Shown: positions 7,000 to 38,002 of the stretch, piece after piece
Position numbering within the stretch: the first letter of the stretch is position 1
How the letters are laid out: each line of letters starts with the position of its first letter
Assembly: GCA_903861125.1 (NCBI GenBank)
Contig: CAIOTF010000051.1
Location: 1-64,000, forward strand
DNA length: 64,000 nucleotides
Reading direction: 5' to 3'
Origin: an uncultured Ignavibacteriota bacterium
Lineage (GTDB): Bacteria > Bacteroidota > Ignavibacteria > UBA10030 > UBA8401
Notes under the pieces: model-generated
The model's input: only the letters and a program-made list of their open reading frames with translations
Told to the model about the DNA's origin: nothing
Database searches by the model: none
Program-made: the position numbers and the translations under genes

Positions 7000-8268
7000 C
7001 TACTTTAAAAATGAACCGATATCGGCAGCGAAAATAATTGTTACGATTCCAAAAAGCAGCGCAAGAAGAATAGGAACAGCCGCTGCTTTTAATATGGTAA
7101 AGTGATTTTTTATTCCGAGCATCTGGGCAGCAAAGACGCACAACAGCGACGGCGGCGGCATAAGATCACCGATTCCTGCGATCAACGAAAGAGCCGAGGT
7201 TACAACAATCTCATTTCTTCCAAGGAAGACAAAGACCAGCGGAACGCCGATCACCGATGATGCTGCATAGGCGGAACCCATAGCAGGCATAATAAGTGCA
7301 ATACCGAGATACAGTAGTTCCGGCGGAAGCTGCAACGCGCTTACGGCAAGATATCCGCGAACACCGGTTAGCGTCATGATCTGCACAAACATTCCGACGC
7401 CGACAAGAATACCAAGGACCGGAAGCGCTTCGCGAATTGCCAGCTGCGATACTTTTACAACTTCAACTTTCTCCCCTGTCCGTATGCCGATCACGGCACC
7501 AATCATAAAAATCAACGGTATGCCGATATCGGGAACAAGATCCGGAGCAATTCGAATGCCCGCCATCAATCCGATCACCACGATCAGCGGAAGGAAGAGA
7601 ATCACTCCATGCTTAGCGTACACTGACGGCGGCAATTTTTCGAGGATCTCGTTCACGTCAATCTTCCGGATGTACCGGAACCGGAAATAAAGCGCCGTTA
7701 CGATTGCAAGCGGGAAGGTCATAAAGATAAGCGGTTTTTCGAACCCAACGTACGGCATATCAACACCGCCGCCGATGATCATCACGGGAATATTGATCGG
7801 CGGTGCAATCATCCCGAATACCGCCATCATTGCAATGAATGCACCGACTGAGACGGCCGGAATTCCCATTCCAACAAGCGCAGGAGCAACCAGTGCTCCG
7901 GTCGTAAGAATGCATGCTGACGATAATCCGGTCATCATTCCCGGGAACATCACAAAGAATGCAACAAGGATCATTAATAGCGTAGGGTAACGGTATAATG
8001 ATTTGATCATAGCATAGCTGATTGTGCCAAGCGCTCCGGTTGCTTCGACCACTTTCATAAAGATCATTGCCGTTGCGATGATCAGAACTGCATCCAGATA
8101 TCCGAACATTCCTTCCACAAGATGGCGCACCGGAACACCTTGTCCCGCCACAAGTGCGCCGACCACGGAGGCCGCCGCCATTGCCAGGCCGGAAGGAAGT
8201 TTCAGCCAAAACACTCCGCCGGCAAAGACAGCAAGCATGGAAAGTAAAATGATCAGTTCTAATGGCAT
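7000..8268 (-). CDS. TRAP-type large permease (DctM-like)
   Basis: 422 residues with about 10-12 membrane helices, matching the large (DctM) subunit of TRAP transporters in length and in GMMTGLSSACILTTGALVAP and MIAPPINIPVMIIGG. These secondary transporters take up carboxylates, including acidic amino acids, using a sodium gradient. No solute-binding protein (DctP) and no normal DctQ gene accompany it; the next gene is a 48-residue two-helix protein. Transcribed with the desuccinylase-like gene, so a glutamate-type substrate is plausible but inferred. No frame disruption seen. Confidence 0.8.
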   Translation of the reverse strand: MPLELIILLSMLAVFAGGVFWLKLPSGLAMAAASVVGALVAGQGVPVRHLVEGMFGYLDAVLIIATAMIFMKVVEATGALGTISYAMIKSLYRYPTLLMILVAFFVMFPGMMTGLSSACILTTGALVAPALVGMGIPAVSVGAFIAMMAVFGMIAPPINIPVMIIGGGVDMPYVGFEKPLIFMTFPLAIVTALYFRFRYIRKIDVNEILEKLPPSVYAKHGVILFLPLIVVIGLMAGIRIAPDLVPDIGIPLIFMIGAVIGIRTGEKVEVVKVSQLAIREALPVLGILVGVGMFVQIMTLTGVRGYLAVSALQLPPELLYLGIALIMPAMGSAYAASSVIGVPLVFVFLGRNEIVVTSALSLIAGIGDLMPPPSLLCVFAAQMLGIKNHFTILKAAAVPILLALLFGIVTIIFAADIGSFLK

Positions 8269-8387: not shown

Positions 8388-9293
8388 TTAATTCAATCTC
8401 TCCGTAAATTTTTCACCACAATGAATGTTGAGATATTCAATAATCACGCTTACGAGCAGTTTTGCAGTAGATTCGAAATGGTCCTGTGACCGTAATTCCG
8501 GATTTAGTTCAAACTGCACGCCAAATATTTCCGTCGTATCTTCTGCGGCATGACGGAAGATCGTATAACCGCCGGAAAAGAATTTGTACGATTTCGGCGC
8601 AGGATCGGATGGACTCGGCGTTGAACGGACGCCATATGTATCGAACAGAGCTCCAAGACTATTTTTACCATGGATCAGTTCGGCGTGAGAATACGCGGAT
8701 ATTTTCACAAGATTCTTCAGACTGCTTTTTTCAATGTATTCCTTTGAATTCAAATCGGCATCAGGCATGGCTAATTCGTCGCTTTCCAGCCGGTACCCGA
8801 TTTCGATCCGTTGTTCAGGGTGATTCTGTCCGTGCAGATCAATCAAAAAACCTTTTCCGAACGATCTCCGTGCGGAGGCCTGGGCCGAATCAATGAATCC
8901 ATGATAATCGTTCCACGCGGTCAGTGCGGCGGTATTTTCCTGAGCTGCTTCAAATTCTTCCCGGTTCACATCAAGTTTCCTGCGCACCAGGTGAGAGAAG
9001 ATAACATGGGGTGACTTGCCGGTCCGGCCCATGAATTCCGTAATCATCTCGCGTGCTACTTCCTGCGTGCCATTATCTCTTGCGTTCACGCCGAATGTTC
9101 TATCCGAAATAATTTCCGGTTTCAAACTTCCGCCATGCGGAACAGAAATAATGATCGGTAAATTACCCGCAACGTATTCAACAAAGTGATTCTTTCCCCA
9201 ATATGAATTTCCCGGAACAAAGTCCGAGGATTGTGGAAAGGCACACTCAATAAAAATAAAAACCGATAACAGCAGAGAATAAATTTTCTTCAT
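8388..9293 (-). CDS. Exported N-formylglutamate amidohydrolase-like zinc hydrolase (copy 1)
   Basis: 301 residues. A signal peptide (about 1-20) precedes a domain with the N-formylglutamate amidohydrolase (FGase) pattern: IISVPHGGS (H53), RKLDVNRE near 105 and LIDLHGQNH near 150. These supply the metal-binding and carboxylate-binding residues. Classical HutG-type FGase is cytoplasmic and ends histidine breakdown; the signal peptide and the PGA genes downstream suggest another N-acyl or gamma-glutamyl substrate here. A paralogue with the same motifs lies at 20180-21130. The gap upstream carries the terminator of the preceding gene. Confidence 0.82.
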   Translation of the reverse strand: MKKIYSLLLSVFIFIECAFPQSSDFVPGNSYWGKNHFVEYVAGNLPIIISVPHGGSLKPEIISDRTFGVNARDNGTQEVAREMITEFMGRTGKSPHVIFSHLVRRKLDVNREEFEAAQENTAALTAWNDYHGFIDSAQASARRSFGKGFLIDLHGQNHPEQRIEIGYRLESDELAMPDADLNSKEYIEKSSLKNLVKISAYSHAELIHGKNSLGALFDTYGVRSTPSPSDPAPKSYKFFSGGYTIFRHAAEDTTEIFGVQFELNPELRSQDHFESTAKLLVSVIIEYLNIHCGEKFTERLN

Positions 9294-20179: not shown

Positions 20180-21130
20180 TTAATTGATTTTATTGGAAAT
20201 CCGGCGTTCATATTCATGAAGATATTCTATAAACACTTCTGCCGCCGTTTCGGCAAAGGCCTTCCAATTTTTTTCTTCGTCTCTCATTCCATCAATATAT
20301 GTTTCGAGCTGAACTCCTCCGAGCAGCCCGCCGCCAGCAGAACTATGGCGCTCCAGATTATATCCTCCGCTAAAATACGGTGTGCGACCCGGTGTCGGTT
20401 GTCTGGGACTGGGCACGGCAGGGATACTGTGTTTTTCAAATAACGCACCGATACTTTTCGGACCGCGGATCGTTTCGCTTAGCGACAGATGTTGTTGTAT
20501 AGCAAGTAATTCAACACTACTCGTAGAAAGAAGTTTTTGTGCATCTAAAGAATCATTATTCATTCCCAACTGTAATCCCACAAGAAGATATCCTAGTTCC
20601 AACTGCTGAATCTTATGTCTGTGCCCGTGTAGATCAATGTACAATCCAAATCCAAAAGATCTCCACACGGATGTTTCTGCCGAGTCGATAAATTGATGAA
20701 ACTCTTTGTATGCACTAAACGCCGAAGGATCGTCCTGTGTCGCATCAAATTCTTCACGGTTCGCATCCAGCTTATTCCGATGCAACCGATTGATAATGCA
20801 ATGAGGATATTTTCCTGTTCGCCGAAAGACCGCTTCGACCACCGCGCGGGCTAGTTCCTGCGTGTTAGCATCGTAGTGTCCTTTTGTGCCGAGTTCCCTA
20901 TTTGTGATTTCGTCCGGTTCCAAATGACCGCCGTGAGGAACGGAAATTACGAGAGGCATATTTCCGGCTATGTACTCGATGAAATTCTTTTCGCCAAAAT
21001 ATGACCGGCCTGCTACGTATGCAGAATCGGCCGAGATAACAGTTTGGAGGGTAAAGAGGAGGAATGCCAGAATGCCATTCCGATATGAAATGAATGAAGT
21101 GTGAAAGCTGGGACAATTGAATTGTTTCAT
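20180..21130 (-). CDS. Exported N-formylglutamate amidohydrolase-like zinc hydrolase (copy 2)
   Basis: About 316 residues from the ATG at 21130; an upstream ATG at 21151 is possible. The N-terminus has an export signal. The same motif set as the copy at 8388-9293 is present: VISVPHGGH, RNKLDANREEFDATQ and YIDLHGHRHK, plus the later FSGGYNLERH. The two copies are aligned through most of their length, so they are paralogues. It follows the Ntn hydrolase gene by 36-57 bases. Substrate not known; an acylated or gamma-linked glutamate is suggested by family and by the genes next to copy 1. Confidence 0.8.
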   Translation of the reverse strand: MKQFNCPSFHTSFISYRNGILAFLLFTLQTVISADSAYVAGRSYFGEKNFIEYIAGNMPLVISVPHGGHLEPDEITNRELGTKGHYDANTQELARAVVEAVFRRTGKYPHCIINRLHRNKLDANREEFDATQDDPSAFSAYKEFHQFIDSAETSVWRSFGFGLYIDLHGHRHKIQQLELGYLLVGLQLGMNNDSLDAQKLLSTSSVELLAIQQHLSLSETIRGPKSIGALFEKHSIPAVPSPRQPTPGRTPYFSGGYNLERHSSAGGGLLGGVQLETYIDGMRDEEKNWKAFAETAAEVFIEYLHEYERRISNKIN

Positions 21131-21186
21131 GAAATAGAAATAACAAAACATTAATACCGATTACGACGAGTAAGTTATTTCGCCAA

Positions 21187-22919: not shown

Positions 22920-25484
22920 TTACTTTCTCACGATCAGCGCATTCAGCAGCAATTTGTATGTTCCGTGTGTCTGAGCACGGTGCTGAACACCGAATCCGTA
23001 CATAATCACTTTTCCATTGCCAAACGGAATTTCAGCAAATGCTGTTTTCCCTTCCACATAGTCTTCGCCGATCAGCCAGCCGCTGCGGAGAGGATTGGTA
23101 TTTTCATACCAGCCGACCGAGGCACTCTGCCGTGAAGTCTGCAAGAGACGAAATACCGGATCGTTAGTAAAATAGATAAAAGCAGTTGAATTCATTCCAT
23201 AGGTCAATGGATGATTGGTATCGAGTGTGATTTCTAAAATCGAGCCGGAGGCATAAAAATCCTTGCTCGCCACTCCTTTCAGCAAATTCACCGCGGGAAT
23301 TCTTATCTTTTCTATTGCAAAGTTCGATGCGGAAGCAAATGTCAGCAATGAGCCGCCTGTGCGGATGAATTCTTTCATCGATTCAACACCTTCCTTGCCG
23401 ATGCCTCCCTGAAATTCCTTCGGCCGTACCGGAATACCGTCGATCGGATCATCGTCATCTTCATCGTTTTTTCCATCAACAATCATGTTCGCCGACATAT
23501 CGGGCAGGATGATCACATCAAAATCTTTTTTCAAGTCTTCACCTTTTTTCTTCATGTCGACATTTTTAAGAATGGTATACGCGATGCCGTACTGATCAAA
23601 GAGATAACGCGTCCATCCTTCGTCCACCGATGAACGCCAAGACTGGTACAAACCGATGCGCGCCGGCAGAGCCGCGCGCATTGATGTGGTATCGGATATA
23701 TCCATGCAGGTGATCTGCACATTCCATTTCTTTGCCGTTTCGTCCATGAATTTTCGGTCAGCCTTTTTCGCCGGAATTAAAAACGTTCCGGCTGATACTA
23801 TTCCGTTGTACAGCGTTTCAAATACAGAAATGTTTTTCTTTGACAGTGCATTCATTATTGCATAGGCAGTATTCCATCGCCGTTCGAGAACATAAAATGT
23901 TCCTGCGGTGCCGGTTATGCCGGAAGGAAGAGTAATTGAATCAGCCGGCACTGTTACTATTTTTGGGGTTTCGTTACATACGACTACTTCAACGCCCATC
24001 TGCATCGGCCAGGTCCATGCAGTAATGTCATATGGCGCACGCGGCGGCCCGCCCGGATATTGCTTCAGATCCGGATAATGCTGAATTTCAAAGAGATCTT
24101 TAACATAGGAGCGTGACGGCTGCGCGGCGGTGATCCACCATGATCCTTCGGCAATCGTCCGACCCTGGTACGGAAATGGTTCCGATATTTTTTTTATCTT
24201 CACGCCGGAAACTGCCAGACGCCGCACCATTTCAAAGGCGGCATTCGGGTCATGCTGATTCACTGGTATCATCCACCCGGCTGGAGTAAACGTGTTTTCT
24301 GCAGCGATCGCCTCGCGGTTGAGAGTAAGAAAATTCATTTTTATTTTTTCTTTTCTCACCGAGGCAAACTCGAGCATAGAACCGACGGCGTATTTTTCAT
24401 AGTCGATGATATTCCGCAAAGACCACCAACCACGTTCAAACGGATCGAGATGATTTGACTGTGCAATATTCGCAGAAAGAAATTGTCCCATTCCTCGCAC
24501 GCTGCCGCGGGGAAGGAATATTGGTGTTGCGAGATATGAGCTTGCCGCTTCAGACAGAATTCCGATCCGGTTATGCCACATCGGCGTCTTCGACAGTGTG
24601 CCGGGAAAATAACCGGTGAAAGTCGTTCCGGTAACAACACCTTTCAAACCTTGCTTGTGCAAATCGGCGACAATATATTCGCCAAGCAGATTCATTTCCG
24701 AAGAGAGGCGCGGATCAATATTCGGATTAACAGGATCCTCATACGGCGGCAGAAAGAACCGGGCATTATTTGTTCCCATCTGATGCTGGTCATACACGAT
24801 CTCGGGATACCAGTCTTCATATAACACTTTTGCTACCAGACGGCTTTCCGCTAAATTATACATAAACCAATCGCGGTTGTTGTCGTGCCCGGCGTAATAA
24901 TGATACAGCATCGGGGGCATCGACCCTTCCGCGGACGTACCAAGCGTCTTCCGGTACCACTCGACAACCATCTGCAGTCCATCCGGATTCAATGAAGGGA
25001 CCAACAGAAATACAACATCGTCCAGCATTTTTACTATCGCAGCATCTTGCGATGTTGCATAATCATAGATAAGCTCAACCGACTGCTGACTGGAAGCAAT
25101 TTCCCCGGAATGAATATTCATGCCGATAAAAACGACCGTTTTCCCCTCCCGAACAAGAGCAGAATCCTGCAGCTTTGTTATTCCATCAGGAAAGGCAATC
25201 ATTTTTTGAATCGCACGCAGCCGCTCAAGATTTTTCATGTTCTTTTCCGTGGACAGCGTCACAAGAATGAACGGTTTCCCCAATGTCGTTTTCCCCAATT
25301 CTGTTACCTGAACACGCGGAGATTTTTCCGCAGCCAGCTTGCTGTAGGAAACAATCTGCGGCCAATCAATCATTTTTTTCTCCGTTCCCATCGTAAATCC
25401 GAAGTATTCACGCGGAGACGGTAGTTGAGATTGAGCGGCTGCAGTGAGAGAAACAAAAAATATCAGGAAGAAAATATATTTCAT
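22920..25484 (-). CDS. Large secreted M14-family metallocarboxypeptidase
   Basis: About 854 residues from ATG 25484, where a clear signal peptide starts (MKYIFFLIFFVSLTAAAQS); the longer frame to 25541 adds residues with no signal character. The M14 zinc site is visible: MNIHSGEIA (H125, E128) and YDQHQMG for the third ligand, with LVPSLNPDG and NNRDW. A long C-terminal half (about 480-854) has a class-I glutamine amidotransferase-like fold and no sorting domain, which is typical of this large M14 subfamily. Likely digests peptides in the periplasm. It precedes the Ntn hydrolase gene in the same direction. Confidence 0.88.
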   Translation of the reverse strand: MKYIFFLIFFVSLTAAAQSQLPSPREYFGFTMGTEKKMIDWPQIVSYSKLAAEKSPRVQVTELGKTTLGKPFILVTLSTEKNMKNLERLRAIQKMIAFPDGITKLQDSALVREGKTVVFIGMNIHSGEIASSQQSVELIYDYATSQDAAIVKMLDDVVFLLVPSLNPDGLQMVVEWYRKTLGTSAEGSMPPMLYHYYAGHDNNRDWFMYNLAESRLVAKVLYEDWYPEIVYDQHQMGTNNARFFLPPYEDPVNPNIDPRLSSEMNLLGEYIVADLHKQGLKGVVTGTTFTGYFPGTLSKTPMWHNRIGILSEAASSYLATPIFLPRGSVRGMGQFLSANIAQSNHLDPFERGWWSLRNIIDYEKYAVGSMLEFASVRKEKIKMNFLTLNREAIAAENTFTPAGWMIPVNQHDPNAAFEMVRRLAVSGVKIKKISEPFPYQGRTIAEGSWWITAAQPSRSYVKDLFEIQHYPDLKQYPGGPPRAPYDITAWTWPMQMGVEVVVCNETPKIVTVPADSITLPSGITGTAGTFYVLERRWNTAYAIMNALSKKNISVFETLYNGIVSAGTFLIPAKKADRKFMDETAKKWNVQITCMDISDTTSMRAALPARIGLYQSWRSSVDEGWTRYLFDQYGIAYTILKNVDMKKKGEDLKKDFDVIILPDMSANMIVDGKNDEDDDDPIDGIPVRPKEFQGGIGKEGVESMKEFIRTGGSLLTFASASNFAIEKIRIPAVNLLKGVASKDFYASGSILEITLDTNHPLTYGMNSTAFIYFTNDPVFRLLQTSRQSASVGWYENTNPLRSGWLIGEDYVEGKTAFAEIPFGNGKVIMYGFGVQHRAQTHGTYKLLLNALIVRK

Positions 25485-25573
25485 AATTGATAATTCATAG
25501 CGTTGGTCGAATCGACAGAGTCGACAAAATGTTGGCACCAAACGGATGTTCCGACCTGCATATTCGAAACGGA

Positions 25574-25857: not shown

Positions 25858-28800
25858 TCATTTCATTAAAATCATTTTTTTTACGCAGGTAACATCCCCT
25901 GCTTGAAACCGGTAAAAATACAATCCGCTGGTGAGAGCGCCGGCATTAAATTGAATATCATAGAATCCTGCTTCTTGCTTTTTTTGCACCAATGCGGCAA
26001 CAGTTTTTCCTAAAATATCGAATACCGTTATCGTAACGAAACTGCTCGTAGGCACTTGATATCTGATCACCGTCGTTGGATTGAATGGATTCGGAAAGTT
26101 CTGGTGAAGCATAAATGCCGCAGGAGATGAAACAACGACACCGACGTCTGAGGAAGATGTTCTTGGCGTGACAGAAAAATCATCAATCGCAAATGAATGA
26201 TCATAACTTGCATCATCTTCATCTCTCCATCTCAGCATGATCTCTTCACCATGAGGGATCTGCACCGGAATCGAGGCATGCAGCACCGTGCGATTTAGAG
26301 GATTATTCCCATCAAGAGCAGTCTGGAACGGCGTTAATGAAGGAGAGGTAAAGGATAATGCGTTGAATGCCGTATATACCCCCGATGAGAGATCAAGAAT
26401 TTTCGGGGATTGCAGGTATTCAAATGCAAGCACATTAGGAATGCTGACAGTGGCAGAACCCCCGGTTCGCCATTGCTCGCCGCTGTAGGTGACTTCAAGA
26501 GAACGAATAAGTGAACCGGTGCTATTCTTGAATCTCATTCCATAAAACAATGTTCCAGTGATTGATGATTGTATTCCTCCCAATGAACGATCAGGGCTTG
26601 TCGGTGAATTTCCGTAATGATAAAAACCGCCGGTAGCCGTTGCACCGGCAGACCGGTTCAAAACATTCGGGACAGTATTGTCAATCGTTCGATAGGTATA
26701 TACGCCGGGAATAGACGTATTGTTAAAAAGGTAAAAAGTGGATGCCATTCCTAAACCATCAAAATTCTCTGAATAGGGTATATCCAGAGAATAGAAACAA
26801 ACCGGATCGTCAGCCTTCGCATTCAGATCATAGAAAAAAACACGGTTTGGTGATCCCTGGTTGACACCGCACAAAAATATTTTTCCGTTATCGGTATTTC
26901 GAGCAAGCGAAAGTCCTGCCGCCGCCGGGCTCCCTGCTCCTGATCCGGCTTCCTGCAAAACATCGTGAAACAAACCTGTTTGAGTTCCTTCGGGCAGTTT
27001 AAGCTGAACGAGATATTGAGGTAATCCGGTACCGGCGCTTCTGATGTAGGCCCACAAACATGGTTTGTACGAGCTGATGTAATCAATCACTAGTCCATAG
27101 ACTCTTGCAAGCCCATGGGCTGCCATGCTAATGTGGGAGAGTTCTGTTCCCTGACGATTCACAAGGACCAAATCGCTGGTCGTATCGCCGATCCAAAATC
27201 CGCCTTGATCAATGTTCGCATGCCGATCGAATGTCGCAAACCGCGCATTTATCGGTAAGGGAATCGTTTCCAGAAGAGTTCGTGTTACCGGATCGATCTT
27301 GTACATACTCGATCCGCCAGTGACGGCAAAAACGCTGGTGCTGTCTGAGGTCATCGCTCTGATGCCGCTTACTCCGAGAACGCTGAACTCTTCTAACAGT
27401 GAACCCGAGGCACTCCAGCGATGAAGCAGTGCGCTGTTGAAACGCGATGTCCAGAACTCATTTCCCATCATGACAATTCCCGCATTGTTGCTTCCGCCGG
27501 TAACCGCTGTTGCATCGAAGAGAGACAGCAGCGGATGAAAAGGCGGCGCGATAGCAAATGTAACACTGTCCGCAATGCCGGCAGAACCGGCAGACTGGAT
27601 CCGTATTTTGGACGTTCTCGATGGTGTGTTCGGTACGGTCCAGGTGTACGGTGAGACTGCCGCCGTCTGTAACACAGTCCAGGTGATTCCATTATCAGTT
27701 GAATAGTCAAGCCGCATCGGATCCACACCTCCGCCCGAGACCCACTGTATGGTACGCGTTGAACCGGTAACCCATTGTGCATTCACCCCCGGTGATGTCA
27801 ACGCCGCAAATGCGGAATCAATCGTCACCGTAAATGAAATCGTCGAGCCGAGCGTTCCAATATTTGAGATGCTGATATTGGCTTTTGAGCCATCCGTTAA
27901 GAAACAGGAAGGATTGGTGCTATTATTAAAAGCGGTGCGGCCTGCATCGGAACAGAATGTTGCATCAGCCGTCGATTGATAGACCAGGTGTGTTCCGTTC
28001 GGACGAAAAACATAGACAGCATCCGGCGGGCCATTGCGGTTGCCTCCGGAGACAGTAGTGTTGATACGATAAATCAACAAGCCTTCCGACGAAAGAGATG
28101 CTTCAAACTGTCCGACGATCTTCCGGTATTCGAGCATGAAATATTCAGTCGCCGAATTTGGAGAACGGATTTTGAAACAATTACTCGTCGAAGAAACTAA
28201 AGGATTCAGCTCATAGGTGCCGGTTCGTGTAATCTCCGGAACATCACTAATCCACTTCCCATAACGATATTTCATGTATGCAGTCATATGCTGCGGCGGT
28301 TTCTTGTTGTCCGCCATTAAATCCCAACGCCCGACCGGCGTATTGCCATCATCCGTATAGTGGTAGAGATCCGGAGATCCGAGTGTATGGAACATCTCAT
28401 GGGCGAAAGTGCTGGCACCGTTCTTCGCCGTTGCTTGTGTTGTCAGATTGTATTCATCACATTGGGCGCCGTTGATCATTACAACCCGGGAACTCGACAG
28501 CGATGTTTTATGCGGCCAAAGAAGATCGCCCCATCCTGTCGCATTACCATAGACGATGAAAACAACATTATCCACATATCCATCGTCATCGAGATCGAGG
28601 TCTAATTTGGAAGACACTTGGTCTTTCACATAATTCAATGCTTTTTCTATTAGTACTCCTTCACGCACCGCTTCCTGATCGCTGGTATAGCCGTCTGGAT
28701 TGCTCACGCTGTAGGGTTCATAATAAGAGCGGGCGTAAGAATCCATATACGATATCACCGTTGTCGTGCTCGAAACCGGATAAAAGGTTGAAGTAACCCG

Positions 28801-29340
28801 TAATGCCCCGTAAGATACTTCGTAGAAATAATTCCGTAAAGATACTGCTGTACTGATGGAATCATTAAAGATGCCATCATAGAGTGAGAGCGCATCGGTA
28901 AATTCCGGATCATTGTTGAACCGGATAAAAACAACAAGATTATTGATCGACCCGGACGTAAGGCTCGTGCTTGTGCCATCGTCATAACGAAGGTGTTTTG
29001 TACGAGCAGAATACGAAGCCCGGATCTTTTCTGGGGACTCCTTCAGCCATGGAATCAGTCCCTCTTTCGCCGGGTCTACCTTGCCGGGAATAAACGATGT
29101 TGGTGCAAGAGCGCCATTCAACTGCTGTGCATACACAAAATATCCATTGTTCGGGTTTTGTATAATCGTGTACCCCAGGCTGTCATGCATCCAGTGAAAA
29201 AATTCATCACCACTTGCATAACATTGAAGAATGACTCCATCGGGCTGCAACACTGTTTGCGGTACGAACTTGAGCGGTGCTGCGTCAAGGACAACACACA
29301 GCAGCATGGTAAAATAAAATGGAAGTATAGCAGATTTCAA
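25858..29340 (-). CDS. T9SS-exported M6-family metalloprotease
   Basis: 1160 residues. Signal peptide (1-20), M6 (immune-inhibitor-A-like) catalytic domain with the zinc motif H314-E315-x-x-H318 in FAHEMFHTLGSPDLYHY, then a beta domain (about 510-600), a propeller-like region, another beta domain with SSDVGVV, and a T9SS sorting domain (NFPNPFNPTT core). It would be released or held on the cell surface to cut proteins. The start is TTG 29340 with GAGGAG about 14 bases upstream; the next in-frame ATG (29307) would cut into the signal peptide. Preceded by the porin gene with an 84-base gap. Confidence 0.88.
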   Translation of the reverse strand: MKSAILPFYFTMLLCVVLDAAPLKFVPQTVLQPDGVILQCYASGDEFFHWMHDSLGYTIIQNPNNGYFVYAQQLNGALAPTSFIPGKVDPAKEGLIPWLKESPEKIRASYSARTKHLRYDDGTSTSLTSGSINNLVVFIRFNNDPEFTDALSLYDGIFNDSISTAVSLRNYFYEVSYGALRVTSTFYPVSSTTTVISYMDSYARSYYEPYSVSNPDGYTSDQEAVREGVLIEKALNYVKDQVSSKLDLDLDDDGYVDNVVFIVYGNATGWGDLLWPHKTSLSSSRVVMINGAQCDEYNLTTQATAKNGASTFAHEMFHTLGSPDLYHYTDDGNTPVGRWDLMADNKKPPQHMTAYMKYRYGKWISDVPEITRTGTYELNPLVSSTSNCFKIRSPNSATEYFMLEYRKIVGQFEASLSSEGLLIYRINTTVSGGNRNGPPDAVYVFRPNGTHLVYQSTADATFCSDAGRTAFNNSTNPSCFLTDGSKANISISNIGTLGSTISFTVTIDSAFAALTSPGVNAQWVTGSTRTIQWVSGGGVDPMRLDYSTDNGITWTVLQTAAVSPYTWTVPNTPSRTSKIRIQSAGSAGIADSVTFAIAPPFHPLLSLFDATAVTGGSNNAGIVMMGNEFWTSRFNSALLHRWSASGSLLEEFSVLGVSGIRAMTSDSTSVFAVTGGSSMYKIDPVTRTLLETIPLPINARFATFDRHANIDQGGFWIGDTTSDLVLVNRQGTELSHISMAAHGLARVYGLVIDYISSYKPCLWAYIRSAGTGLPQYLVQLKLPEGTQTGLFHDVLQEAGSGAGSPAAAGLSLARNTDNGKIFLCGVNQGSPNRVFFYDLNAKADDPVCFYSLDIPYSENFDGLGMASTFYLFNNTSIPGVYTYRTIDNTVPNVLNRSAGATATGGFYHYGNSPTSPDRSLGGIQSSITGTLFYGMRFKNSTGSLIRSLEVTYSGEQWRTGGSATVSIPNVLAFEYLQSPKILDLSSGVYTAFNALSFTSPSLTPFQTALDGNNPLNRTVLHASIPVQIPHGEEIMLRWRDEDDASYDHSFAIDDFSVTPRTSSSDVGVVVSSPAAFMLHQNFPNPFNPTTVIRYQVPTSSFVTITVFDILGKTVAALVQKKQEAGFYDIQFNAGALTSGLYFYRFQAGDVTCVKKMILMK

Positions 29341-29424: not shown

Positions 29425-30702
29425 TTAAAACTCTATTTGCCATTCGAGCATATAACTGTTTACCGAAACCCTGTCTTCGGATGATGTGATCAATCCGCCC
29501 CCGTCCTTGTCTTTATCGTCGCCGTTGGGTATGGCACGAGCAAAACGTATTTGGAATGCGGAATTATTCGTCACCGTATAATAGAGACGAACGGAGAATT
29601 CATCATCCATCGAATTGTAATTGTCGTTATTAACGTATTCACTCACTTTAACGTATTGTACCTGAAAGCGGATCTTCGGAAACATCTTCGGTATCACATA
29701 CATGCGCGTATACCAGATACGGCTTCCTTCAAGATTCTGGCTGTTGCGCGGATAATCCCCGCCAACTTCGCCGTTCACATATCCGGCCCTGCCTCCCCAA
29801 AAGAAATTGGGGTACGGCGGACTGAACTGTTCGATCTTTGTTGTTTTGGCATCATCGCCCTGGTATGCAGCGTACCGTGTTTCCAGTTTGATGGAACGAA
29901 ACGGTCCTAATCCCCACCGGTAACCGATTCCGCCCATGTATCCGATCCCTCCTTTTTCGGGAAGTCCGGGAGCCTGGTTAAACTGCTGGTATGCTCCTTC
30001 AACAAAATATTCGAGGTCCTTAAAATAGATCTCACCTGTTGCTCCCGCACCGTAGACAATATTGTCGTTGTAAGGACCACGTAGTTTTTGTTCGATGCCG
30101 TAAATCATCAGATCCTGTTCGAAAAAATTACCGCTTAATTTTGCGGCATAAATCTGATCACTTCCCGGATCGGGATAAAGACCGGAAGCGCTTAGGTTCT
30201 GTCCGGTTATTGCTCCAAACAATGATAATGTAACCGGAAAATAGGCAAGGTCAAGCCTGCCTCCGTCGAACTTATCCGAATAGTAATACGAATCTCCAAA
30301 CGACAAACCGTTTCCGATAGGAAATTGCTGGCGTCCAAGACGTACACGCGCAAGATCGAAGAACAGAACATTCTGCTCGGACATTTCCGCATAGATCTGA
30401 CTTATACCGAAGCGCATCGGACCGGTTCCCGCGATATTCCTAATCGGCTGGCCGGGACTGTCTATCAGCGTGATGAGTTCGGTGGTGAACGAAGTATTGC
30501 TTGTTACTTTTGCTTTTGCCCGCAGGCGTCCGAGATACCTCAGATAATTTTCCTGCGCACGGTTATCGCGCGCCCAGCCAAAACTGTCGGAATACCATCG
30601 CATCCGGAAATCTCCTTCAACATTGATCTGAGCTATTGCCTGAAGTGATGGTAACAGTAAAACAATAACTACGGCAAGTATTGAAAAATATATTTTCTTC
30701 AT
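29425..30702 (-). CDS. Outer membrane beta-barrel, alginate-export/porin-like
   Basis: 425 residues with signal peptide (1-25, ending AIAQ) and alternating strands throughout, ending in a terminal strand with C-terminal Phe (LEWQIEF), as in outer membrane barrels. RLGRQQFPIGNGLSFG and SDKFDGGRLDLAYF resemble the alginate-export (AlgE-like) porin family. The ligand is unknown. It begins ten bases after the lipoprotein gene, so it closes the operon that starts with the glutamate racemase. Confidence 0.78.
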   Translation of the reverse strand: MKKIYFSILAVVIVLLLPSLQAIAQINVEGDFRMRWYSDSFGWARDNRAQENYLRYLGRLRAKAKVTSNTSFTTELITLIDSPGQPIRNIAGTGPMRFGISQIYAEMSEQNVLFFDLARVRLGRQQFPIGNGLSFGDSYYYSDKFDGGRLDLAYFPVTLSLFGAITGQNLSASGLYPDPGSDQIYAAKLSGNFFEQDLMIYGIEQKLRGPYNDNIVYGAGATGEIYFKDLEYFVEGAYQQFNQAPGLPEKGGIGYMGGIGYRWGLGPFRSIKLETRYAAYQGDDAKTTKIEQFSPPYPNFFWGGRAGYVNGEVGGDYPRNSQNLEGSRIWYTRMYVIPKMFPKIRFQVQYVKVSEYVNNDNYNSMDDEFSVRLYYTVTNNSAFQIRFARAIPNGDDKDKDGGGLITSSEDRVSVNSYMLEWQIEF

Positions 30703-30712
30703 AGTACGATCC

Positions 30713-32548
30713 TTATTTTGCTACATAGACTAAACCGGTGAATTGCGGATCACCGCTTACTGCCGGACGGAATGTTTGAAGCACTGTTCCTGTTGTTGTA
30801 ACCTTGAATACATAATCCGATGCCGTTGTGCTGTTGGCGATCCAGAAATTCGTACCATCCCATGTCAGTCCGGTTGAGAATCTGCTGGCGCCGCCATACG
30901 TCGGCGTTTGGAACTTAGCACTCCATGCACTTCCGTTGAGACTATACACAGAATCAAGATCGGTGTCATTGCAATAGAGAACGCCTCCCGCAAATGTAAC
31001 ACCTCTCGGATTTTGTCCCGGTGATGCGATGGAATCCAAAACCGCTCCGGTCGCGGGATTCATTTTATAGATCCTTCCACCGCCGCCCGTGATAAGACTA
31101 ATGGAGACCCAGACATTTCCGGATGCATCGAATGTAATTCCCCGAACAGTTCCGCCAACCGCAGGAACGGTAATCGACGCAAGCGAGGCTAACGATGCGC
31201 CGGTCGTGTCGATCTTATGGATCTTCCTATCCGTGCCGGAGGTGCTCATCCAAAAATTCGTTCCATCGAATGCTAATCCCTGTGCACCACTCGAGGAAAG
31301 AATAGCGGTTGTGGACCACGATTTGACAAGCGTTGTATCTGTTGTCCGTATTTTATGAACGGCATACTGTCCTGCTGCCTGATCGGCGATCCAGAGGTAC
31401 GGAATCTGTGGTGTGGCGGTCACTTCAAAGAGCGTGTCGCCGACGGCAAATTTCCCGTTTGGATTGGTCACTTTTACATTTCGTTTTCCGGTCACCGCTG
31501 CCGGATCTATAATAATGCTCACTTTAAGTTGCGACGCGCTAACAAATTGCGGTGCACTTACCGAAATTCCCACACCAAAATCGACAGCAACACCGTATCC
31601 GGGCTTAAATCCTGTCCCAAATACATCCACGGAATAATTTGAACCGGGGACTCCGGAAGAAGGCGAAACAGATGTAACGGAGACCGCATCCGTTACACGT
31701 ACATCAACTGATGACCATACGAGAGTCGCCATTGAAGGATACGGCAGATCATACCGGATCTGTTCTTTATTGGTATACGAAATTCTATATAAATGATCGG
31801 CAACATTGCTGCTGTTGATAAGCCAGAAGAATGTTCCATCATATGCTAATCCTGCTGGATAAATGTAACTGGCTCCAAGCGGCGGTTTTGGGGCCGAAAA
31901 AACCGTATCAAAGTAAGGTATTGACGGCAAGAATTTATACACTTTATCGGAAGTGACATCGGAATAATACAGACCAGGATCCGGTCCGCGTCCGTAAACA
32001 TCCAATTTCGGATTGACAAATACCAAACCCCGAGGATCGGATGAAGGAAGTAGGAATTCAGAAAGGACAACTCCATTTCCATCCAATTTGTATAGTTTCG
32101 CAGGGGATGCATACGTGGCCGATCCGCTGTTCAGCGCCCACAGATTGCTTCCGTCCCACGCAATGCCACGCACGGTTCCCTGTTTGAGAGGCGGTGCATC
32201 GAAAGATTTCATTACAAGCAGTGTATCGCTTGAGGCATCCACCTGAAATATCTTGTCTGAATTTCCGGCTGACGAGAGCCAGAGCGATTTCCCGTCTGTG
32301 GTGATCCCCTGGATACTGCTGTCGGCCGTAACAAGAAAATAATTCCATCGTTTCAATTCCCGCAGATCGGAATTGAGCATGATGATTGATGTGGAATTTC
32401 TTTCCGTGATGTAAAAATATCCTTTGGCGGGAACGATCGACGAATCGGTATTCCCGTCGCTGTCAAACACATCGCAGCCCGCAAAGAGCAGCAGTATCGC
32501 GGACGCGGCGCATATGACACGATGTTTCATGGATGAAATAGAGTTCAT
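30713..32548 (-). CDS. Lipoprotein with beta-propeller and IPT/TIG domain
   Basis: 611 residues. A lipoprotein signal ends in the lipobox LFAGC, lipid Cys C25, followed by Asp-Val, so it is membrane-anchored. Two beta-propeller-like regions with repeated GITFDGTNFWM / GLAYDGTFFWL units flank an IPT/TIG immunoglobulin-like domain (about 295-390, VTSVSPSSGVPGSNYSV). No catalytic motif; likely protein or ligand binding at the membrane. Its ATG overlaps the upstream stop by four bases (ATGA), showing translational coupling to the T9SS protein gene before it. Confidence 0.8.
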   Translation of the reverse strand: MNSISSMKHRVICAASAILLLFAGCDVFDSDGNTDSSIVPAKGYFYITERNSTSIIMLNSDLRELKRWNYFLVTADSSIQGITTDGKSLWLSSAGNSDKIFQVDASSDTLLVMKSFDAPPLKQGTVRGIAWDGSNLWALNSGSATYASPAKLYKLDGNGVVLSEFLLPSSDPRGLVFVNPKLDVYGRGPDPGLYYSDVTSDKVYKFLPSIPYFDTVFSAPKPPLGASYIYPAGLAYDGTFFWLINSSNVADHLYRISYTNKEQIRYDLPYPSMATLVWSSVDVRVTDAVSVTSVSPSSGVPGSNYSVDVFGTGFKPGYGVAVDFGVGISVSAPQFVSASQLKVSIIIDPAAVTGKRNVKVTNPNGKFAVGDTLFEVTATPQIPYLWIADQAAGQYAVHKIRTTDTTLVKSWSTTAILSSSGAQGLAFDGTNFWMSTSGTDRKIHKIDTTGASLASLASITVPAVGGTVRGITFDASGNVWVSISLITGGGGRIYKMNPATGAVLDSIASPGQNPRGVTFAGGVLYCNDTDLDSVYSLNGSAWSAKFQTPTYGGASRFSTGLTWDGTNFWIANSTTASDYVFKVTTTGTVLQTFRPAVSGDPQFTGLVYVAK

Positions 32549-33747
32549 TTGATCAGTACCATCCTTATTGTTCGTATGTATGAAGTTGTTTTTATATTAC
32601 AAAAATATATTCCGGACGAATATTGTTCTGCGTTGAATTGGACGGAATGGAATCCGCGCGCTGTATGATCGTTCATCAGGAGGTTGATCTCTTTTCCCCA
32701 TAGATCGTACACCGACAGCCGCACCCATTCATCGCTCGGGATGTAAAATTGGATCGTCGTCGAAGGATTGAACGGATTCGGATAATTGTTGAGCAATTCA
32801 AAATTTATTGCGGCAGCATTATTTTTTCTTTCAACCGACGTTTGAGGTGTGAATGTTTCACAGATCGCATCGATTGACAATAATTGTTTTGATAGGGTCG
32901 TTCGCAGCGGATAATCATGCTCAATGTGAACAAATAACTGCCCGTTGCTGTTCGACCATTGACCTTGTTTATTCGTCGTAGCGCCGAGATTTCCCAATTG
33001 CATAAAAGTCGATGCACTGAACACTCCCGCCGTAAATCCTTTCGATTCATATTTTGTTTCAAGTGTCGAGAGAATTGAAGGGGGATTCAGCGTTCCATTA
33101 CTGATGACAACATCGGGATATCCGGCATTACTTCCCGATTTGCTGAATCCATGGATCTGCACTGCTTTCGATGTTCCCGAGCGTTTATGAGCGACATAAA
33201 ACACGGATTGCGTAACGTGTGCCATGTCCGATGACGAATCGGCATTGCAGTAGCGGTGCGTTCCCGCCAGAATAAACCATTTCGAATCCGCTTTAATAAA
33301 TAACCTGATCGCCAATTCCCATGAATTGGTATCCCACAGGGGATGCGGGGTTTCAATCGTCAAATCATTCGCAGCGGCAGGATCGAAAATATACGTTCCC
33401 CAGCCGCGCAACACGGGAATATTTTCTTTTAGTATATACAGGGTGTCATTCGTTGCCGTATTCACGAACTGAATAAATTGATATCCGTACAGTGATGCCC
33501 GTGCTGAAATGGTCAAGAAATTTTTCTTCTTGAGATCTATGAACAACGTGTCAAAATAATTAAGATGAGCGTTGGTAGGAATAAAAAATTTATTGGTTCC
33601 TATATCCGGCATCGCGTCCTTGATTGTTTTGATGAACTGAACAATGTCACCGGACATCAAGGACTGCGACCGTAACGGAGTCGCAACGCTCATTAGTAAG
33701 CTGAGTATCATACAATATTGGAGTACTATTTTGCTCTTCTTCATCAC
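32545..33747 (-). CDS. T9SS cargo, possible metallohydrolase of an unnamed family
   Basis: 400 residues: signal peptide (about 1-28), a domain of about 270 residues, and a T9SS sorting domain (NYPNPFNPST core). The domain has a chain of conserved-looking polar motifs, PHPLWDTNSWELA, AGTHRYCNADSSSDMAH, VQIHGFSK, DVVISNGT, LGATTNKQGQ and VHIEHDYPLR, laid out like an enzyme with metal or phosphate ligands. The His/Asp/Glu pattern recalls N-formylglutamate or PGA-hydrolase-type enzymes, but I cannot assign it. It overlaps the racemase gene upstream and the lipoprotein gene downstream by four bases each. Confidence 0.65.
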   Translation of the reverse strand: MMKKSKIVLQYCMILSLLMSVATPLRSQSLMSGDIVQFIKTIKDAMPDIGTNKFFIPTNAHLNYFDTLFIDLKKKNFLTISARASLYGYQFIQFVNTATNDTLYILKENIPVLRGWGTYIFDPAAANDLTIETPHPLWDTNSWELAIRLFIKADSKWFILAGTHRYCNADSSSDMAHVTQSVFYVAHKRSGTSKAVQIHGFSKSGSNAGYPDVVISNGTLNPPSILSTLETKYESKGFTAGVFSASTFMQLGNLGATTNKQGQWSNSNGQLFVHIEHDYPLRTTLSKQLLSIDAICETFTPQTSVERKNNAAAINFELLNNYPNPFNPSTTIQFYIPSDEWVRLSVYDLWGKEINLLMNDHTARGFHSVQFNAEQYSSGIYFCNIKTTSYIRTIRMVLIK

Positions 33748-34757
33748 TTTCTCTGGAACTCAAACAGATCTTTTTTCAACGTATATTTTTGGAGAGAATT
33801 TGCTGTGACTGCGGATTGGCCCATGATCAATGCGCCGATCGATCGTGTCTCCTGCTGAGTAATTGCAGCCCGTGAGACAACATTCACACTCACTGTTGTT
33901 GAGACGAACCGTTTGTTTGACTTTACTGGAAATATTACACCGCTCATAGAGCGCGTAGGATCGATCACGAATGTTTTTCTTTTTGAAGCATCATTCACTC
34001 CCTGCAGGAAATGTTCGGATGCGTACCCAAAATGGGTGCAGCACAAGCCGACATACACATTTCCGGAAACAGCCGGTAGTTTTTTTGCGGCATCATCGGA
34101 ATAAAATCCGATCATCGTCGCAACGGCATCGCTCGAAGCATCGCTTTGAATTTCACCGGCAAGATCCGGACAAGCCTGGGTTACGATTCTGTCCTCCGTA
34201 ATTCCATTCTTCAGTAGCAGCGATTGATGACTGCGTGCTTCAATTGTTGTCTCTGTCCCGAAAATGACTATTGATGAGGTTGTATCTTTTTTCAATGCGT
34301 CCGTCATCATATCAACTCCAATGTCAACGATACTGATGACGGGGATTTTTGCATTGAGGAAATAATCGGTTTGTTCATAAAGAACAGAAAGAGTGTTGCA
34401 TGCAATCAAAATTATGTCTGGCGAATACCATTTTGTCATCCCGTCAAGAGCGGCGGAAAAAACACGTACTTTTTCTTCCGTCGTTTTCATATTGTTGTAT
34501 CCGTAATCGGATTCCGGCAAAGCGTTGCAATAAATGATTTTGACCGATTTGAATGGATGCTCTGAACGAAATCGACTCTCAATATCGGCGCAAACGGCTA
34601 TTCCCCCCAAACCTGAATCTGTAATCAAGATTGTAACTTCCTCTTTACTTAAAAATTCATTGAACAACAAATACTTATTAACATCACGTGATTGGACAGA
34701 ACCCGCTGTTACCTGCAGTAGTGAAAATATTAATGCAATTAATTCTGTATTCCGCAT
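33744..34757 (-). CDS. Exported glutamate (Asp/Glu) racemase homologue
   Basis: 337 residues. A hydrophobic N-terminal segment (about 6-20) looks like a signal peptide, unlike cytoplasmic MurI, which starts directly at the DSG motif. All racemase active-site parts are present: ITDSGLGG (D47, S48), LIACNTLS (C120) and GLCCTHFGY (C240, H242), the pair of catalytic cysteines that deprotonate each face of glutamate. MurI makes D-glutamate for peptidoglycan inside the cell; an exported form would more likely interconvert glutamate released from D-containing polymers. It heads an operon of four genes, three of them overlapping by four bases. Cleavage of the signal is predicted, not shown. Confidence 0.82.
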   Translation of the reverse strand: MRNTELIALIFSLLQVTAGSVQSRDVNKYLLFNEFLSKEEVTILITDSGLGGIAVCADIESRFRSEHPFKSVKIIYCNALPESDYGYNNMKTTEEKVRVFSAALDGMTKWYSPDIILIACNTLSVLYEQTDYFLNAKIPVISIVDIGVDMMTDALKKDTTSSIVIFGTETTIEARSHQSLLLKNGITEDRIVTQACPDLAGEIQSDASSDAVATMIGFYSDDAAKKLPAVSGNVYVGLCCTHFGYASEHFLQGVNDASKRKTFVIDPTRSMSGVIFPVKSNKRFVSTTVSVNVVSRAAITQQETRSIGALIMGQSAVTANSLQKYTLKKDLFEFQRK

Positions 34758-34889: not shown

Positions 34890-34906
34890 TCCAACTATTG
34901 TGCCAT
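34890..34906 (-). promoter_or_regulatory. Candidate sigma-54-like promoter toward the racemase operon
   Basis: Minus strand TGGCAC-AATAG-TTGGA. The -24 half is perfect; the -12 half has GG in place of GC. Leader to the racemase ATG would be roughly 120 bases. Confidence 0.38.
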
Positions 34907-35042
34907 CTTTTAGGGCTTTGTTTGAGAGAAAAAATGCTATATTTTCAAACAAATGAGCTATATGCGTACACTGTGTATGAGCGGAATCCGCCCATCCAAT
35001 ATCATAATCCACTATTTTGAATGGGATTTCTCTTAAATAGGA

Positions 35043-35058
35043 TGGCACAATCTTCGCT
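35043..35058 (+). promoter_or_regulatory. Candidate sigma-54 promoter of the two-component operon
   Basis: TGGCAC-AATCT-TCGCT, with GG and GC ten bases apart; one mismatch in the -12 half. It ends only 12 bases before the kinase ATG at 35071, so the leader would be extremely short. Confidence 0.45.
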
Positions 35059-35070
35059 TTCAATTACTGT

Positions 35071-36615
35071 ATGAAAACCATCGGCGTATCTAAAAAGACC
35101 ATCATTATTTTCGCGACAATTCTTGTCATCATCGGAATTTCGGCATACGGCGCAAGCATTTTCCTTAACCGATGGACTGATGAAATTATTCAGACGAACA
35201 CGGAGCTAACACGGGAAACAGTCAGAAAGATCATGACCGCTTCAGTATCGGTCATTGATAGTCTTGAACAGCAGAATTTCTTTTCACGCGAGACCCTGTC
35301 AAAAAAAGAGTGGCGGACTATTGATAATCTTTTTTCCGCGATTACGGCAAGCCAGGCACACTCCGTTGTCGGGATGGAAGGGGGATTTTATTTTGTCTCA
35401 TTCGACGAAATGATCGGCTATTCGTGGCCAACGGCACCGGATCCCGCGCCGGCGTACGGACCTGCTCCCCGCTCGTACCCAATCATCAAATCTCAGATCA
35501 TAAAATCCATTCATCTGCGTAAGTCGTTATTGGAATTTCATTCATTCGATTTTGCTGTTTTTCCGTTGGCAACCGAACCAATTATTATCCGCAACAGAAT
35601 TGTCGGCGGAACGTGGGCACGCATTCATGTTGAACGGGAACTTCCGTCGAGCAAATTAATGCACATATTGAACATTGCTGCAATCGTAGCCATTGGTGCT
35701 CTCGGTGCCGCAATGATCCTGCTCTGGTTCCGCCGAAGACACGTCAATGCCATCCGCGCAGGTCTCGATCTGGTAAAACTTGATCCGTCATACCGTCTTC
35801 CCTTGGAATCAGGCGTCTATGGCGCGATCGCAGCATCGATCAATTCAATGGTCGATGCATTGATTCAGGAGCAGCACATACGAGAACAATTGGAACGGAA
35901 TCTCCATCAGCAGGATAAAATGGCGACGCTCGGGAAATTGATTGCCGGTGTTGCACACGAAGTAAAAACTCCGCTGGCAATTATTAAAACTCGTATTCAG
36001 ATGTGGCAGCGCGATCTTCAGCAGGAAAAACCCGAAGGCGAATTGCGAACAACCGTCTCCGATGATTCAATGGAACTGGTCGTCAAGGAAATCAACCGTC
36101 TTTCCAATCTGGTGAAACGCCTGCTGGTCTTTGCAAAGCCGACACAAAATAAATTCCAAAAACATAACATCAACGATGTTGTCCGGCAGACGGCATTGAT
36201 CATTCAAGTGGAAGCGGAAAACAAACATATTTCTGTCATCATGGAGTGTGCAGAGAATCTTCCGCTGCTTGAATTCGATCATCAGGCAATGGAGCAGGTG
36301 TGCATCAATCTGTGTGTGAACGCCGTGGAATCGATGCAGGAGAACGGCACACTGACGATCTCAACATGGATCAGCGATGATGGTGGATCGGCCTTTGTTC
36401 AATTCAAAGATACCGGCAAAGGAATACCGGAAGAACTGCGGCAGAAGATCTTCGATCCGTTCTTTACAACAAAAGAGCATGGCGTCGGTCTCGGACTTTC
36501 CATCTCATACGAAATCGTGAAAGCACACGGCGGAAAGATCGAATTCATTCCGACCGAAGGAGAAGGAGCTACCTGCCGCATTACTTTGCCAACTCAGATA
36601 AAAGGAAAAAAATAA
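35071..36615 (+). CDS. Membrane sensor histidine kinase (NtrB/AtoS type)
   Basis: 514 residues. First membrane helix at 9-28, an extracytoplasmic sensor of about 170 residues with a Pro/Ala-rich loop (PTAPDPAPAYGPAPRS), second helix near 205-225, HAMP-like linker, HisKA with phosphorylatable H296 in GVAHEVKTPLA, and an HATPase domain with N-box CINLCVNAVE, G1 DTGKGIPE, F-box FDPFFTTK and G2 GVGLGLSIS. It should phosphorylate the response regulator encoded four bases downstream. The signal is unknown; the surroundings suggest a peptide or glutamyl compound. Only plus-strand pair among minus-strand operons. Confidence 0.92.
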   Translation: MKTIGVSKKTIIIFATILVIIGISAYGASIFLNRWTDEIIQTNTELTRETVRKIMTASVSVIDSLEQQNFFSRETLSKKEWRTIDNLFSAITASQAHSVVGMEGGFYFVSFDEMIGYSWPTAPDPAPAYGPAPRSYPIIKSQIIKSIHLRKSLLEFHSFDFAVFPLATEPIIIRNRIVGGTWARIHVERELPSSKLMHILNIAAIVAIGALGAAMILLWFRRRHVNAIRAGLDLVKLDPSYRLPLESGVYGAIAASINSMVDALIQEQHIREQLERNLHQQDKMATLGKLIAGVAHEVKTPLAIIKTRIQMWQRDLQQEKPEGELRTTVSDDSMELVVKEINRLSNLVKRLLVFAKPTQNKFQKHNINDVVRQTALIIQVEAENKHISVIMECAENLPLLEFDHQAMEQVCINLCVNAVESMQENGTLTISTWISDDGGSAFVQFKDTGKGIPEELRQKIFDPFFTTKEHGVGLGLSISYEIVKAHGGKIEFIPTEGEGATCRITLPTQIKGKK

Positions 36616-36619
36616 CTCC

Positions 36620-38002
36620 ATGAAAGAGAAAAGAACTATTCTTGTTGTTGATGATGAAGCATCCATGCGGACCAACGTTGTCGAATTATTATCGCGCGAA
36701 GGATATTCAGTATTTGAGGCGTCCGACGGAGCAGAGGCATTGAAGGCTATAAAATCGCATTCGCTGAATCTTGTACTGCTTGATATTAATCTGCCGAAGA
36801 TCGACGGCATTACGGCATTGAAAGAGATCAAGAAGGATTTTGCCGACCTTCCTGTTATTGTCTTTACGGCATACGGCACCAGCGAGCGAGCCATTGAAGC
36901 AATGAAAGCAGGCGCGTACGATTATCTCGACAAGCCGTTCGAACTGGACGAATTCCTTCTAATTGTACGGCGGGCATTAACGTTTGGCGACCTCCTCGGC
37001 GAAGTGAAGCAATTGCGCTCCACAGTCTCTAACAACACACAGCTTTCCGCAACAAGTCAGCTTGTCGGTATCAGCCAAAAATCGCAGGAGATCTTCAAGT
37101 TGATCGGCCGCGCAGCTCCGAGCGAAGCAACCGTTCTAATCCAGGGTGAAAGCGGTACGGGAAAAGAGCTCATCGCCGATGCAATTCAGCGGCACTCGTT
37201 GCGCAAAGAAAAACCGTTCATTAAAGTTGATTGCGGCGGATTAACGGAAACCTTGCTGGAAAGTGAATTGTTCGGGCACGAAAAGGGATCTTTTACCGGT
37301 GCTGTTTCACAGCGCAAGGGACGGTTCGAGCTGGCAGACGGCGGAACGATTCTGCTGGACGAAGTGAACAATATGACACCGGGGCTGCAGATGAAACTGC
37401 TGCGCGTACTGCAGCAAAAGACATTTGAACGAGTCGGCGGAAAAGATACCCATACCGTTGACGTGCGCATCATCGCCGCCACCAACAAAAATCTTGAAGA
37501 TGAAATGAAGGCCGGACGCTTCCGTCAGGATCTATTCTACCGCCTCAACGTAATTCATATTGTTATTCCTCCCCTGCGTGACCGGCCGGAAGATATACCT
37601 GTGCTTGTTGACCATTATTTGAAGCGGATTAAACCAACAGAAAAGATTATTGTTCCGGACGAATCGTTGACAAAACTTATGGCCTATTCCTGGCCCGGCA
37701 ATGTTCGTGAGTTGGAGAATGTTATCCAACGCGCACTCGTTATGACACATGGAAGCGTGATCACGATCGATCACGTGCCGTTCTCTGCTCAGCCCGTGAC
37801 CGGGAATACCGGCGGGAACAATGTGCTGCAGGAAGGATTCAATTTGAAATCGTATCTAACAGCCATGGAAAAGAATTTGATCGTGGAAGCGCTGGAAAAA
37901 ACAAATTGGAACCGGACCTTAACAGCGAAGATGTTGAATATTAACCGGCGATTGCTCTTTTCAAAAATGCTTTTCTACAATCTCAATCGAAAAAAGATGT
38001 AG
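36620..38002 (+). CDS. NtrC-family sigma-54-dependent response regulator
   Basis: 460 residues. Receiver domain (about 5-120) with phospho-acceptor D55 in LVLLDINLPK; AAA+ sigma-54 interaction domain (about 145-385) with Walker A GESGTGKE, the sigma-54 contact loop GSFTGA (a normal variant of GAFTGA) and Walker B GGTILLDE; C-terminal Fis-type helix-turn-helix (about 415-455). It would activate sigma-54 promoters when phosphorylated by the upstream kinase. Several candidate sigma-54 sites lie in this window, including one just before the kinase gene, which would allow autoregulation. Confidence 0.93.
   Translation: MKEKRTILVVDDEASMRTNVVELLSREGYSVFEASDGAEALKAIKSHSLNLVLLDINLPKIDGITALKEIKKDFADLPVIVFTAYGTSERAIEAMKAGAYDYLDKPFELDEFLLIVRRALTFGDLLGEVKQLRSTVSNNTQLSATSQLVGISQKSQEIFKLIGRAAPSEATVLIQGESGTGKELIADAIQRHSLRKEKPFIKVDCGGLTETLLESELFGHEKGSFTGAVSQRKGRFELADGGTILLDEVNNMTPGLQMKLLRVLQQKTFERVGGKDTHTVDVRIIAATNKNLEDEMKAGRFRQDLFYRLNVIHIVIPPLRDRPEDIPVLVDHYLKRIKPTEKIIVPDESLTKLMAYSWPGNVRELENVIQRALVMTHGSVITIDHVPFSAQPVTGNTGGNNVLQEGFNLKSYLTAMEKNLIVEALEKTNWNRTLTAKMLNINRRLLFSKMLFYNLNRKKM

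Follow-up and report, generated by a model that had tools for sequence, protein, structure and literature searches.

The window analysed here, a 64,000-nucleotide stretch of a contig from an uncultured Ignavibacteriota bacterium, contains a MurI-related racemase gene with a predicted export signal (33744–34757, reverse strand; 337 amino acids), whose open reading frame begins with ATG and is preceded by an in-frame stop two codons upstream. It heads an operon, on the same strand, in which the second gene (32545–33747) encodes a secreted protein of 400 amino acids with a T9SS C-terminal sorting domain (PF18962, 37 bits, cut-off 27; TIGR04183, 37.3 bits), the conserved third gene (30713–32548) a 611-amino-acid lipoprotein with the lipobox LFAGC and a probable beta-propeller and TIG-like domain, and the conserved fourth gene (29425–30702) a 425-amino-acid outer-membrane porin-like protein. 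The racemase and T9SS-protein genes overlap by 4 nt, as do the T9SS-protein and lipoprotein genes, the porin-like gene lies 10 nt further on, and the same gene order recurs in loci L038, L039, L040, L042, L044 and L056. A first-pass annotation, made without database searches, had described the genes following the racemase as encoding a T9SS protein, a lipoprotein and a porin-like barrel; the first two assignments held, and the third is plausible but not shown, being supported by a sub-threshold match to NF033939 and a C-terminal Phe in addition to its conserved position. Further along the reverse strand lie genes for a T9SS-secreted M6-family metalloprotease (25858–29340; TIGR03296, 138.6 bits), a secreted M14-type Zn carboxypeptidase of 873 amino acids (22920–25541; PF00246, 65.9 bits) and an N-formylglutamate amidohydrolase (FGase)-like protein (FGase-like protein 2, 20180–21151; PF05013, 31.6 bits, cut-off 28.9). 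Compared with its L038 counterpart, the M6 protease gene shows 99% identity (dS 0.017), and the four operon genes just upstream of it have dS values of 0.26–0.38 against the same locus; this sharp break may reflect recent recombination or an assembly effect.

A block of poly-gamma-glutamate (PGA) genes occupies the beginning of the window, also on the racemase strand. It comprises genes for a poly-gamma-glutamate system protein (gamma_Glu_sys, 286–1425; TIGR04332, 256.7 bits, cut-off 100; start of the reading frame uncertain), PgsC/CapC (1346–1783; PF14102, 124.4 bits, cut-off 27), the PgsB/CapB poly-gamma-glutamate synthase (1786–2922; TIGR04012, 254 bits, cut-off 222.7), a gamma-glutamyltransferase (GGT) with a signal peptide (3077–5068; TIGR00066, 462.7 bits, cut-off 357.85), a predicted exported DUF6305 protein (5127–5684; PF19823, 161.3 bits), a leader-bearing and thus predicted exported AstE/AspA (M14-like) Zn hydrolase of 372 amino acids (5723–6841; PF24827, 30.6 bits, cut-off 25), a DctM-like membrane carrier of 422 amino acids (7000–8268; PF06808, 25.3 bits, cut-off 23.8) and a further FGase-like protein (FGase-like protein 1, 8388–9293), which has an N-terminal signal peptide and scores 25.8 bits against PF05013, below the cut-off of 28.9. 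Our criterion for a PGA locus, PgsB and PgsC both above cut-off, was met, and PGA production by the organism is inferred from these genes only. In PGA loci DUF6305 is repeatedly found between the genes for the M14/AspA hydrolase and GGT, and it is possibly a new component of the PGA system. In the window this block and the racemase operon are approximately 20 kb apart, with other genes of the same strand in between, and the physical linkage is weaker than in other genomes.

Divergent from the operon, on the forward strand, are genes for a histidine kinase (35071–36615; PF00512, PF02518), whose position is conserved in L038, L042, L056, L072, L073 and L086, and an NtrC-type sigma-54-activating response regulator (36620–38002; PF00158, 231.9 bits; PF00072). 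Between the operon and this pair lie two divergent TGGCAC-type, sigma-54-like elements (34890–35058) conserved in three species (including those of L033 and L034): TGGCACAATAGTTGGA upstream of the racemase operon (34890–34905, reverse strand), with an imperfect -12 element, and TGGCACAATCTTCGCT upstream of the kinase gene (35043–35058, forward strand). When the whole window was scanned for sigma-54 sites, 9 matches were obtained against approximately 6 in shuffled sequences, and we therefore report only these two conserved, operon-adjacent sites. Control of the racemase operon by the kinase/NtrC pair is inferred and appears likely.

The racemase itself scores below the curated thresholds of its nearest families (TIGR00067 glut_race, 53.9 bits over residues 43–253, cut-off 146.65; PF01177, 27.5 bits, cut-off 31), and a phmmer search against PDB sequences retrieved glutamate racemases only (best 1b73, E 3.1e-10). 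The motifs D47-S48-G49, C120-N121-T122 and C240-T241-H242 are all present; D47, S48, C120, N121, T122, C240 and H242 are invariant in an alignment of 22 relatives, and T241 is Ser in three of the 22. The invariant set matches D7/S8/C70/T72/C181/H183 of Helicobacter pylori (PMC6927343). An AlphaFold2 model built from a six-sequence alignment (pLDDT 76.4, pTM 0.76) has the MurI alpha/beta fold, and its first 45 Foldseek matches in the PDB were all glutamate racemases/MurI (E 4.1e-12 to 2e-7); a single-sequence model was discarded (pLDDT 33). Comparison with the nearest relative (87% identical) gave a dN/dS of 0.16 overall, with 0.13 in the domain and 0.55 over residues 1–30, as expected under purifying selection on a working enzyme whose signal peptide is free to vary.

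While the fold, the two catalytic Cys and the Asp, Ser, Asn-Thr and His residues are shared with MurI/RacE, several features set the protein apart from it. The MurI stretch GDTxxxPYG is replaced by NALPxxxxGYN, in which N78, A79, P81, Y87 and N88 are invariant or nearly so among relatives; Gln204 occupies the position of MurI Glu150; and approximately 60 additional C-terminal residues end in a conserved LF motif. These comparisons were made by alignment with an ordinary MurI encoded elsewhere in the same genome (G000:C23:275217-275942), which scores 260.6 bits against TIGR00067 (cut-off 146.65) and begins 12 residues before its catalytic Asp, compared with 46 in the window racemase. In a maximum-likelihood tree, the racemase family forms a clade apart from MurI with 100/100 support. 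Together with the sub-cut-off score, the altered loop and the C-terminal extension, this identifies the window protein as MurI-related but not MurI itself. A census of 151 genomes (150 near ones and that of the window) found true relatives in 20 genomes, at 36–87% identity, and further members occur in other families in a sample of the phylum; family loci named in public records belong to uncultured Ignavibacteriae and Lentisphaeria. As a separate observation on MurI in this class, two genomes of 97% completeness (G131 and G140) gave no MurI-like match at E 0.001.

The N-terminus resembles a signal peptide (residues 1–23, MRNTELIALIFSLLQVTAGSVQS; 34689–34757, reverse strand), with a hydrophobic core (11 residues, mean Kyte-Doolittle value 2.6) and a cleavage site of the V-x-S type, and residues 1–27 have pLDDT <50 and lie outside the modelled domain. 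Leaders were scored with a simple rule of our own (hydrophobic core, non-negative n-region, and cleavage motif or lipobox) and no trained predictor, with the start codons of relatives picked by us. Under this rule all 16 PGA-operon-linked members carried a leader, as did 7 of 20 unlinked members, and the 11 MurI controls had none; the association of leader with operon linkage gave Fisher p = 5e-5, a value that overstates independence, as the sequences are related. The n-h-c architecture is retained among relatives although the sequence is unconserved; in L020 the leader ends in a lipobox (LFGC), and in L078 no ATG, GTG or TTG start was found before it. That the leader lies outside the folded domain is clear from the model, and Sec export of the racemase is inferred; the seven leader-bearing unlinked members indicate that export is not confined to such loci. 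The first-pass annotation had claimed that the active-site motifs (D47-S48, C120, C240-H242) are intact and that a hydrophobic leader precedes the domain, and both statements held, with the residues where it had placed them. It had named the absence of a second, normal murI, or a leader forming part of the folded domain, as refuting results; neither was obtained. The phylogeny against MurI that it proposed yielded the separate clade described above.

Linkage of the racemase to PGA genes is best seen in other genomes of Ignavibacteria. G012 (L089) carries the uninterrupted order racemase–T9SS protein–lipoprotein–porin–DctM–M14/AspA–DUF6305–GGT–PgsB–gamma_Glu_sys, and unbroken runs from the racemase to PgsB/gamma_Glu_sys also occur in G013 (L044/L088) and in G414 (L086/L087), a one-contig genome from another family. 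The DctM-like gene directly follows the racemase in L052, L053 and L055, and in L052 and L055 the M14/AspA gene comes next. G281, a 99% complete genome, contains the racemase, DctM, M14/AspA, DUF6305 and GGT genes, and a search for PgsB in it found none. Across the 151 genomes, PGA markers were detected in 13 of 20 racemase carriers and 17 of 131 non-carriers (p = 2e-6), and the M14/AspA hydrolase in 11 of 20 and 4 of 131, respectively (p = 1e-8), both without correction for shared ancestry. We rejected the proposition of universal co-occurrence in carriers, as 7 of the 20 near carriers lack PGA genes; conversely, no racemase was found in four genomes with the M14/AspA hydrolase, and the racemase is therefore not obligatory. 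Genes for 2-oxoacid:ferredoxin oxidoreductase adjoin the unlinked members in L043 and L046 and flank the PGA locus in L084, a neighbourhood that fits glutamate catabolism. Separately, C69-family dipeptidase genes lie beside the PGA module in L052, L055 and L082, and in L055/L082 the DctM-like and M14/AspA genes are also present there in a second copy; a BLAST label of FGase for the second gene of L086 was dropped, its product being a 399-amino-acid protein with a weak T9SS tail.

Leaderless relatives in two Lentisphaeria genomes (L035 and L036) bear on the substrate. In both, this relative is the sole MurI-like candidate and MurD is present; no canonical MurI or D-amino-acid transaminase was found above cut-off, although these are drafts of unstated completeness and such absence is weak evidence. 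The L035 gene is preceded by MurF and a CapA-like gene and followed by one for a D-Ala-D-Ala-ligase-like protein. On the basis of these observations we infer that glutamate racemisation is likely to be the ancestral activity of the family. The L035 cluster (L035:3-4745; the CapA-like product matches PF09587) is also of interest in its own right, as a possible case of replacement of MurI by the racemase family. For the window protein, the NALP...GYN loop and the substitution of Gln204 for Glu150 leave room for a modified or bound form of glutamate as the substrate.

The reading that we favour, with moderate confidence, is that the window encodes an extracytoplasmic, cofactor-independent, MurI-related glutamate racemase dedicated to PGA turnover; its export, activity, substrate and direction of reaction are all inferred. 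Under this hypothesis, the leader would target the racemase to the Sec pathway for passage through the inner membrane, and the secreted GGT and the M14/AspA and FGase-like hydrolases, judged from their families, would free D- and L-glutamate from the organism's own or foreign PGA. Bacillus GGT is secreted and takes single glutamates off PGA, and the PGA hydrolase PghP is a Zn enzyme resembling carboxypeptidase A (PMC4497714). The racemase, whose fold and residues are established but whose activity is inferred, would then use its Cys120/Cys240 pair to turn D-Glu into L-Glu, which may be taken up via the porin-like protein and the DctM-like carrier and catabolised. An exported racemase would thus let all of the released glutamate enter as L-Glu. 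PgsB works in the cytoplasm with glutamate and ATP and so cannot be supplied by a racemase on the other side of the membrane, making a scavenging or turnover role more likely, and the module without a detected PgsB in G281 favours breakdown and uptake. Several points count against this interpretation, namely the family scores below the MurI and Pfam cut-offs, the altered loop, Gln204, the leaders found outside PGA loci and the four genomes with the M14/AspA hydrolase in which no racemase was found. The first-pass annotation had suggested D-glutamate recycling from PGA or peptidoglycan; the former is supported by the PgsB/PgsC/gamma_Glu_sys/GGT locus and the conserved operon linkage, evidence that it had not cited, and for the latter there is no positive evidence in the leader-bearing form. 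Its description of a surface-protein operon was too narrow: what the racemase heads is a cluster of PGA genes.

Compared with known systems, the locus most resembles the Bacillus PGA system (pgsBCA, ggt, pgdS and the cytoplasmic racemases RacE/Glr/YrpC) in bringing together PgsB, PgsC, a secreted GGT and a racemase, but differs in having the racemase inside the cluster and equipped with an export signal, and in the addition of the TIGR04332 protein, the M14/AspA and FGase-like hydrolases and the DctM-like carrier; none of the window genes scanned was seen to be PgsA/CapA-like. Glutamate racemases are described as cell-wall enzymes of the cytoplasm, and one source places the known types there (PMC6927343), as the first-pass annotation had also stated for MurI; no exported MurI-type counterexample was found in the open-access literature searched, most subscription papers being outside the search. 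BsrV-type periplasmic broad-spectrum racemases are PLP enzymes with the alanine-racemase fold; they share a location outside the cytoplasm with the predicted window enzyme, which differs in its MurI fold and its membership of a cofactor-independent superfamily.

Among the alternatives, the racemase could make D-Glu for PgsB in the manner of Bacillus RacE/Glr, with the leader serving merely as a membrane anchor or part of the protein staying in the cytoplasm. The presence of PgsB and PgsC in the locus and the supply of D-Glu for PGA by Bacillus glr (PMC5751247) support this, but the leader is kept in all operon-linked members, the genome has a cytoplasmic murI and G281 retains the module with no PgsB found, so that we consider it unlikely. 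A bolder and also improbable proposal is that the exported MurI-fold enzyme epimerises glutamate within PGA chains or gamma-glutamyl oligomers outside the cell, the D/L composition being set after polymerisation. The altered substrate loop, the conserved 60-residue C-terminal extension, export and PGA linkage are in its favour; against it, characterised MurI enzymes use free glutamate, and the position of the leaderless Lentisphaeria relative, beside MurF and a Ddl-like gene, hints that the family acts on free glutamate. It is similarly doubtful that the enzyme acts on D-amino acids, D-Glu among them, originating from peptidoglycan turnover or from signalling, with PGA linkage incidental: M14 enzymes include murein peptide amidases (here a weak MpaA match) and leaders also occur outside PGA loci, but conservation of the association with PGA genes runs deep, extending over several families. 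Finally, the protein could have the racemase fold and either catalyse another reaction, as an isomerase or decarboxylase, or be a pseudo-enzyme, as the sub-threshold scores and the Gln at the Glu150 position might indicate; this is likewise improbable, with the invariance of both catalytic Cys and of the Asp, Ser and His residues and strong purifying selection counting against it.

No published account of PGA metabolism in Ignavibacteria was found in the open-access literature searched, and this locus provides a concrete candidate for it. If our favoured hypothesis of an exported racemase dedicated to PGA turnover is true, a Gram-negative bacterium would re-use a D-Glu-rich polymer without moving D-Glu across the membrane, and the handling of PGA stereochemistry and turnover outside Bacillus becomes testable.
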